Positions 3,432 through 5,574 of a stretch of 33,527 nt of DNA are shown here, piece by piece. Within the stretch, counting starts at the first letter, position 1; every line of letters starts with the position of its first letter. The translations under genes were made by a program, and so were the position numbers. The DNA is taken from contig DTSZ01000001.1 in the NCBI GenBank assembly GCA_012965045.1, forward strand, positions 876,024 through 909,550, written 5' to 3'. The notes beneath the pieces are model-generated. The model was not told where the DNA came from, ran no database searches, and worked only from the letters and a program-made list of their open reading frames with translations. The DNA is from Candidatus Saccharibacteria bacterium (GTDB lineage: Bacteria > Patescibacteriota > Saccharimonadia > Saccharimonadales > DTSZ01).

Positions 3432-3460
3432 CCACACACCAAGCGTAGTTAGAGCACTTC

Positions 3461-3496
3461 AAAAGTAAAGCCACCGTAACTGGTGGCTTTACTTTT
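3461..3496 (+). terminator. Intrinsic terminator of ndk
   Basis: A perfect 15-bp inverted repeat (3461-3475 against 3482-3496) with a 6-nt loop. The stem ends in a T run on the plus strand (ACTTTT) and in AAAA at its left foot, so it could stop transcription in both directions. It abuts the duplicated tRNA 3' end at 3495-3516. Confidence 0.85.
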
Positions 3497-3693
3497 GGTA
3501 CACCCGGTAGGATTCGGCCACTTCCAGCTGCCCCAAAATTTCATCTTTGAAAGCGTAGCTTTCAAGAGAAAGTTTCCTTGCGCCATGCTCCCAGCATGGC
3601 TCACCTACGAGTCGTAGGTTCGAACTAGAAGATCAACCAAGCAAAAAGCCGACACTGGGCCGGCATTTTGCTTGGTACACCCGGTAGGATTCG
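3495..3693 (-). mobile_element. Putative small element bounded by a duplicated tRNA-Arg 3' end
   Basis: The 22 bases at 3672-3693 (encoded CCA, acceptor 3' strand and half of the T-arm of tRNA-Arg) are repeated exactly at 3495-3516 in the same orientation, 177 bp away. The unit between them holds the tRNA terminator (3637-3675), an 8-bp-arm palindrome at 3603-3619 that repeats part of the T-arm sequence in inverted orientation (GTCGTAGGTTCGAA, 3611-3624), a hairpin with 8-bp arms at 3582-3600 and another at 3547-3565. This is the layout left when an element integrates at a tRNA 3' end and restores it, with the original end displaced to the far junction. There is no recombinase inside. A similar arrangement flanks tRNA-Asp. 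Alternatives are a local duplication or a regulatory tRNA-mimic RNA. Confidence 0.5.
3637..3675 (-). terminator. Terminator of tRNA-Arg, overlapping its CCA end
   Basis: On the minus strand CCAAGCAAAA pairs with TTTTGCTTGG, and a further GCCG/CGGC pair follows one mismatch. The first three bases of the stem are the encoded CCA of the tRNA, so terminator folding and the mature 3' end use the same nucleotides. Confidence 0.75.
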
Positions 3694-3748
3694 AACCTAC
3701 GACGCCCACCTTAGGACGGTGGCGCTCTATCCACTGAGCTACGGGTGC
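3673..3748 (-). tRNA. tRNA-Arg (anticodon CCU), CCA encoded
   Basis: A full cloverleaf on the minus strand. The acceptor GCACCCG pairs with CGGGTGT (one G-U at the end), the D-arm has GCTC/GAGC, the anticodon stem is CCACC/GGTGG with loop GTCCTAA, which gives anticodon CCU, and the T-arm is GTAGG-TTCGAAT-CCTAC. Discriminator A is followed by an encoded CCA (3673-3675). It decodes AGG. The 3' end is duplicated 177 bp downstream of the gene. Confidence 0.97.
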
Positions 3749-5362: not shown

Positions 5363-5404
5363 TTAATTTTGGTGGGCCCGACCGGATATCGGTCTTGATT
5401 TCAT
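5363..5404 (-). CDS. Possible 13-residue peptide inside the tRNA-Asp-linked element
   Basis: On the minus strand a perfect AAGGAGGT lies 5 nt before ATG at 5402-5404. The frame gives MKSRPISGRAHQN and stops at 5363-5365, so most of its codons are the duplicated tRNA 3' end. Such a strong ribosome-binding site is unusual in this window, where many genes have none. The equivalent ATGAAAT in the tRNA-Arg element (ATG at 3542-3544) has no such site. It may be chance; no function is proposed. Confidence 0.2.
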   Translation of the reverse strand: MKSRPISGRAHQN

Positions 5405-5574
5405 CTGCGACCTCCTTCCTCGCTCCTCGTTAGAAAAAAATGTAAACACTTTTTTCTAACTGCGGGGCTGCGTACGCCTGAACCGGTTTCCGGTTAAGGA
5501 TCCTGCCGGAGCACAACAAATAAAAAACACCTAGGTAAACCAGGTGTTTTTTATTTGGCGGGCCCGACCGGATT
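5369..5574 (-). mobile_element. Putative small element bounded by a duplicated tRNA-Asp 3' end
   Basis: Bases 5555-5573 (the 3' end of tRNA-Asp with CCA) recur at 5369-5387 with a single change, at the discriminator position, 186 bp away and in the same orientation. The unit contains the tRNA terminator (5522-5552), AACCGG/CCGGTT (5481-5495), the palindrome GCGTACGC (5470-5477) and an 11-bp stem (5429-5439 with 5450-5460). On the minus strand AGATGAAAT lies shortly before the duplicated end, and the same nine bases hold the same place in the tRNA-Arg unit. Size, order and orientation match that unit although most of the sequence differs. No gene of ordinary size is present. Confidence 0.5.
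5522..5552 (-). terminator. Intrinsic terminator of tRNA-Asp
   Basis: A perfect 11-bp stem (5522-5532 with 5542-5552) with a 9-nt loop and a T run on the minus strand, starting 3 nt after the encoded CCA of tRNA-Asp. Confidence 0.85.

Follow-up and report, generated by a model that had tools for sequence, protein, structure and literature searches.

The 3′ end of a tRNA-Arg(CCU) gene occurs twice, 177 nt apart, in the genome of a Candidatus Saccharibacteria bacterium, and the question raised by this locus is what placed the second copy there, together with the hairpins enclosed between the two. In the window, which is the whole stretch of 33,527 nucleotides analyzed here, ARAGORN and Rfam (RF00005) locate the intact gene at 3673-3748 on the minus strand, so that the 22-nt sequence TTGGTACACCCGGTAGGATTCG, present at 3672-3693 and again, in direct orientation and with 22/22 identity, at 3495-3516, corresponds to the tRNA segment from C56 of the T-loop to the CCA, plus one base. 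With uniform bases, we estimate that a 22-mer would recur by chance somewhere in 33.5 kb about 3e-5 times, and the repeat found here falls on a tRNA end. A preliminary description of this DNA had reported the exact direct recurrence, an inverted copy of part of the T-arm, and a terminator with strong hairpins, and all three are found in the unit.

Along the minus strand, on which all its parts are read, the unit begins with the intact tRNA, followed by a terminator-like hairpin directly 3′ of it (3636-3676, inverted repeat I2) that holds the complement of the CCA within its stem. Then comes S′ (3611-3624, inverted repeat I3), which repeats the uninterrupted T-arm in antisense (minus-strand sequence TTCGAACCTACGAC) and matches 3690-3703 in 14/14 nt; pieces of this kind are enriched across the arrangement called layout A below. 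It is followed by E5 (3604-3610, TCGTAGG), a sense copy of the 5′ strand of the T-stem and its upstream bases, which forms the left flank of the core and is recognized by its sequence and by its equal position in other copies. The core itself (3510-3605) is matched by the covariance model R1 with 100.9 bits, takes in the flanking GG and CGAATCC, and contains three hairpins supported by consensus and covariation: H1 (3579-3603, TGAG-hairpin-CGCA), which also folds as DNA on both strands; the long H2 (3535-3576), with single-base bulges, likewise recovered by DNA folding; and H3 (3516-3532), with a nearly invariant G.T pair and a covarying pair that closes the loop. The unit ends with the T-loop-to-CCA copy and, beyond it, a second terminator-like hairpin (3460-3497, 16/16 bp, inverted repeat I1), which on the opposite strand also follows the 3′ end of ndk. 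The neighbors are ndk (PF00334) on one side and, on the other, a protein whose PH-domain match is marginal and falls slightly under the cut-off. Elsewhere in the window (5368-5573), tRNA-Asp(GUC) has a second 3′-end copy 186 bp downstream (20 nt, 95%), in a unit of the same layout whose interior consists of different, unrelated hairpins.

The interior of the tRNA-Arg(CCU) unit (3510-3605) is one member of a multi-copy family. When the unit was searched against its own genome (G000, a single contig of 909,550 bp), over 10 partial relatives were recovered, most of them beside different tRNA genes, and eight aligned cores yielded a three-hairpin consensus with compensatory change at 23 of 35 pairs. 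With R1, the covariance model of the core used for the genome searches, 16 copies of the ~95-nt core are found at about 11 tRNA genes of G000, and matches appear in 31 of 60 sampled Saccharimonadales genomes, with up to 17 per genome. In a phylum-wide draw, 4 of the 192 genomes searched match, all of them Saccharimonadales, and a pattern scan of named genomes gave matches almost only in Candidatus Saccharibacteria/Saccharimonadales or MAGs. A match in Rothia (L114) was judged accidental: it falls within a coding gene, with neither a tRNA nor an R1 hit. The collection comprises 198 distinct core copies, associated with tRNAs of 32 anticodons and 17 amino acids; the same interior, for which the preliminary description had suggested looking at other tRNA genes, is thus present at many of them. 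The family is, as far as our searches reach, previously unnamed: nothing in Rfam matches the core, for the window and five loci, and no description of it was found among open-licence papers.

In most cases, the core fills the T-loop, between G53/T54 and C56, of an incomplete copy of the neighboring tRNA, the intact gene being kept. In layout A (97/198 cores), the core lies downstream of an intact same-strand tRNA, typically 66 to 98 nt past the CCA, and is followed by a tRNA 3′ tail. Layout B, to which about a quarter of the cores belong (47/198), is the mirror arrangement, in which a 5′ partial tRNA copy and the core precede the intact tRNA with its promoter region. In layout A, the tail is identical to the local tRNA in at least 19 of 21 positions for 48 of the 97 copies, as against 3/457 for swapped tails, the tail of the remaining copies being decayed or different. 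The recognizable copied half of the tRNA comes, then, from the local tRNA. A smaller set of cores follows the D-arm of a 5′ tRNA copy, with the left flank AGAG in 22 copies; one tRNA-Gln copy of genome G041 carries cores in the D-loop and the T-loop alike, and nested core copies are seen at two loci (L015 and L017).

Other occupants of these sites were also observed. The T-loop slot is also occupied by a second core family (GAGGACACGCGCAGGAGTTTnnTCCGAGCATGCCGCAGCGGATAAAGGAC...) in L227 and L241, which lie downstream of tRNA-Leu(CAG) and tRNA-Val(UAC). A third core type, which starts near a GGGATTCGAACGGGA-hairpin, ends in GGCGAGTCCC and is closed by antisense and sense T-arm pieces, is found at tRNA-Arg(UCU) in L222 and also downstream of cores or tRNA in L053, L055, and L058. 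In L069 (1448-1620), a nearly complete tRNA-Gln-like gene with an apparent CUA anticodon carries a core in its T-loop, and no intact tRNA is found within 1.5 kb of it.

These arrangements bear on the reading of the preliminary description, which had taken the repeat as the usual mark left when a tyrosine recombinase integrates DNA at a tRNA gene. In this explanation, the two copies would be the attL/attR pair of a tyrosine-recombinase passenger or of a tRNA-targeting island since deleted, and a T-loop-to-CCA direct repeat next to an intact tRNA is what would be expected; moreover, integrations are commonly marked by tRNA fragments (PMC9897764). However, a single core family is found with dozens of tRNAs, at each of them beside a copy of that tRNA, and 32 anticodons together with local tails recognizable in 48/97 copies argue that there is no single fixed att core. 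The mirror layout and the D-arm copies also speak against it. Moreover, the repeat was described as reaching from the T-loop to the CCA, whereas in six layout A copies (five from Saccharibacteria or MAGs and one, L096, from a Burkholderiales MAG) it is 56 to 71 nt long and runs through the terminator, so that limit does not hold for recent copies. Phage and viral collections gave no core match, and the only recombinase of the relevant family in the genome, treated below, is Xer-like. Integration at an att site is, in consequence, considered very improbable.

Regarding mobility, the most similar core is found in the same genome for 43 of 174 copies, as compared with 5.7 expected (maximum 17 in 2000 shuffles), and 41 of these 43 nearest cores are not at the same tRNA. 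A nearest core at the same tRNA gives a weaker signal (14 vs 4.0 expected), which points to some vertical inheritance, and gene conversion could also account for similarity within a genome. A comparison of two genomes of the same genus with matching flanks reveals a core upstream of tRNA-Gln(CUG), tRNA-Leu(CAG), and tRNA-Glu(UUC) in G041 and none at the orthologous loci in G011. The clearest case is tRNA-Gln(CUG), where the match extends over 1.2 kb in the upstream gene and the two intact tRNAs are identical; for Leu(CAG) and Glu(UUC), the orthology is based on short or one-sided flank matches. Empty sites, which the preliminary description had called for at tRNA-Arg(CCU), are present at these three tRNAs. 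On the other hand, cores at tRNA-Met(CAU) and tRNA-Gly(GCC) are common to both genomes, indicating that the distribution is partly vertical, and tRNA-Arg(CCU) has no core in either of them (compared by tRNA, not as orthologues of the window locus). Judged from these alignments, the differences between G041 and G011 are gains or losses, in either direction, and the family looks mobile. No transposition event was seen, and neither an autonomous relative nor a dedicated enzyme was found. The proposal that the unit behaves like a small passenger is supported, given the interior at many tRNA genes, the orthologous loci without a core, and the lack of an encoded recombinase, whereas the att-site integration that went with it is not supported.

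A different origin would not involve mobility at all. Foldback replication, template switching, and gene conversion at the palindromes formed by tRNAs and terminators would generate sense-antisense-sense zigzags and homogenized hairpins. The order of sense, antisense, and sense T-arm pieces in layout A corresponds to such a zigzag, terminators often pair with the CCA, perfect repeats of 56 to 71 nt stand alongside a diverged antisense copy, and palindrome correction would give strict Watson-Crick hairpins. Nonetheless, the presence of one 95-bp core at 32 anticodons requires a source and a transport, and the D-arm cores, the nested copies, and the 54 of 198 cores for which no tRNA is detected within 400 nt (some of them truncated by contig ends) are not readily accommodated. 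We regard this origin as improbable, although less so than an att pair.

G000 encodes one protein of the Phage_integrase family (PF00589), at 1144-2052 of the window, and this protein is found in nearly all relatives, whether the core is present or absent. This protein is called Xer-like because of its domain make-up and its single-copy, near-universal distribution, and it is retained as a candidate mover only, being the sole protein of its family found in the complete G000; a phage integrase was discarded as mover, since this near-universal protein is all that the genome has. The second candidate, a RAYT/Y1 transposase, is found in genomes of which 14/17 carry cores, as compared with 17/43 of the negative genomes. 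This candidate was also rejected, because the most core-rich genomes are without the gene (at the thresholds used, no RAYT was detected in G000, G006, G007, G016, or G038, which have many cores each) and because the RAYT genes have private palindromes. In fact, RAYT-like Y1 transposase genes occur in many Saccharimonadales (L253-L270), each flanked by its own short palindrome, for example AAGGACnnGTCCTT, and R1 matched none of the 18 loci with RAYT genes, nor the surroundings of the reverse transcriptase gene of G000. Reverse transcriptase was rejected as a correlate, being found in 10/60 genomes and not tracking core presence.

Whether the hairpins are kept as DNA or as RNA is a separate matter. 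Another explanation for the unit is a structured RNA: terminator read-through would yield an RtT-like trailer or leader, retained because it serves a function as RNA and duplicated on occasion. The minus-strand stretch 3672-3450, which runs from the tRNA end across the second terminator, folds as RNA with a z of -7.0 relative to shuffles, and covariation in the core is strong (97% of cells paired; score 0.455 vs 0.130 shuffled, 0/500), in alignments that had been fitted to the model. The core is nearly always on the strand of the tRNA (in an earlier set of 147 copies, 130 same-strand vs 3 opposite-strand tRNAs within 400 nt), and a unit of like layout, the E. coli RtT, is annotated as ncRNA. 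The G.T pair of H3 is nearly invariant (167/184), and the four pairs with systematic G-T would be tolerable to RNA. A simpler hairpin finder applied to the core ends gave 11 G-T to 1 A-C, with the qualification that it barely admits mismatches, and an early count of 108:20 owed most of its G-T excess to two columns with systematic G-T.

However, once those four pairs are left out, the ratio of G-T to A-C in the core stems is 72:70, whereas the acceptor and T stems of the tRNAs at the same loci give 96:1 and the terminator stems 101:6; in the same comparison, G-T makes up about 1.2% of core cells vs about 7% in the controls. Counting isolated mismatches more strictly in the better rows gave 40:39, and if the A-C-rich pairs 9 and 19 are dropped as well, about 37 G-T to 16 A-C remain (per-pair counts), still far from 96:1. 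As G-T outside those four pairs is as rare as A-C, we favor hairpins kept as DNA over an RNA; the argument, which depends on the pairs excluded, is strong but not final, and the core does fold as DNA on either strand. In addition, many copies stand behind a terminator with no evident promoter, half of the genomes have no core, and cores are found in D-arms too, as well as nested. A structured RNA or tRNA intron was dropped as the leading view after these controls, and a structured RNA now seems rather unlikely.

On balance, we favor with modest confidence the explanation that the unit is a copy of a dispersed, miniature, non-autonomous family of hairpin-rich DNA that colonizes tRNA genes in Saccharimonadales. 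The core would move as folded DNA, probably single-stranded, and an enzyme provided in trans would recognize its hairpins together with the GGTTCRA motif conserved in the T-loop. With each insertion, one half of the tRNA would be duplicated in tandem, and the insertions that survive would be only those that leave a working tRNA. S′, which in layout A often lies between the intact gene and the core, may act as a target guide or, alternatively, be a by-product. In layout A, it matches the antisense of its own T-stem flank at a mean of 6.91/10, as compared with 6.06 for the flanks of other elements, a permutation maximum of 6.31, and 5.31 for shuffled sequences. In layout B, there is no tRNA-specific signal (5.74 vs 5.66), although an antisense T-arm match of at least 8/11 spans the junction in 10/23 copies vs about 4% in shuffles.

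The picture that emerges is of a ~95-bp family of hairpin DNA at dozens of tRNA genes in very small genomes, the gene being spared by a half-copy each time, and it offers a testable system for a DNA mover still to be found. tRNA genes are classic docking sites for large integrative elements, and in islands, phages, and satellites that integrate there, a partial tRNA copy stands beside an intact tRNA, as here. However, the core family differs from them in having no dedicated integrase and no fixed att core, and in that both tRNA ends are used. For annotation, this is a warning that a tRNA fragment close to a tRNA gene may be something other than the scar of an island. The core also resembles integron attC sites, which are imperfect DNA hairpins with bulges, but the RYYYAAC/GTTRRRY box pair of attC was found in 0/197 core copies.

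REP/REPIN elements, too, are palindromes of non-coding DNA that occur dispersed and show compensatory changes (PMC2817692, PMC3116915). REPs differ from the core in their head, which is of the GTAG type, in their position on the flanks of their RAYT genes, and in their length of 20 to 40 bp (PMC3733652), as compared with ~95 bp for the core, which is further distinguished by three hairpins and a preference for the tRNA T-loop.

Outside Saccharimonadales, related H3-type elements occur directly 3′ of tRNA-Leu, tRNA-Ser, and tRNA-Sec in two proteobacterial MAGs (labeled Rhizobacter and Betaproteobacteria). Those of L094, L096, and L169 have the form GGGGTCGC-NGAAN-GTGACC, with an antisense tRNA piece, and L096 shows a perfect 69-nt direct repeat around an insert of ~80 bp. 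They may reflect horizontal transfer, convergence, or contamination; the contigs are long.

The closest likeness in layout is the RtT (rttR, RF00391) of E. coli tyrT/tyrV, for which no paper explaining the origin was found. Its core is unrelated to that of Saccharimonadales (R1 scores 7.6 bits at best, in MG1655, for this locus only), and RF00391 gave no hit on the window or five loci. In the same E. coli locus (L177, 1000-1701), a partial tRNA-Tyr 3′ tail is also seen upstream of tyrV (GAGGAGCGAAGCGACGAATAATCCTTCCCCCACCACCA). Nonetheless, RtT repeats in tandem with a unit of 178 bp, and in every unit 19 nt from the 3′ end of the tRNA (AATCC...CCA) are found together with a piece in antisense (GGGGAAGGAT), a T-arm piece in sense, and, in the T-loop slot, a hairpin core; this layout was read by eye. 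A bolder and more doubtful extension of the proposal would be a new class of mobile DNA that folds as a single strand and inserts into T-loops whatever the tRNA gene, half of the tRNA being copied every time and the antisense T-arm serving as a guide, with the E. coli RtT and the Burkholderiales elements as distant products of a like process; this would suggest a possible origin for puzzling tRNA-linked repeats, RtT among them.
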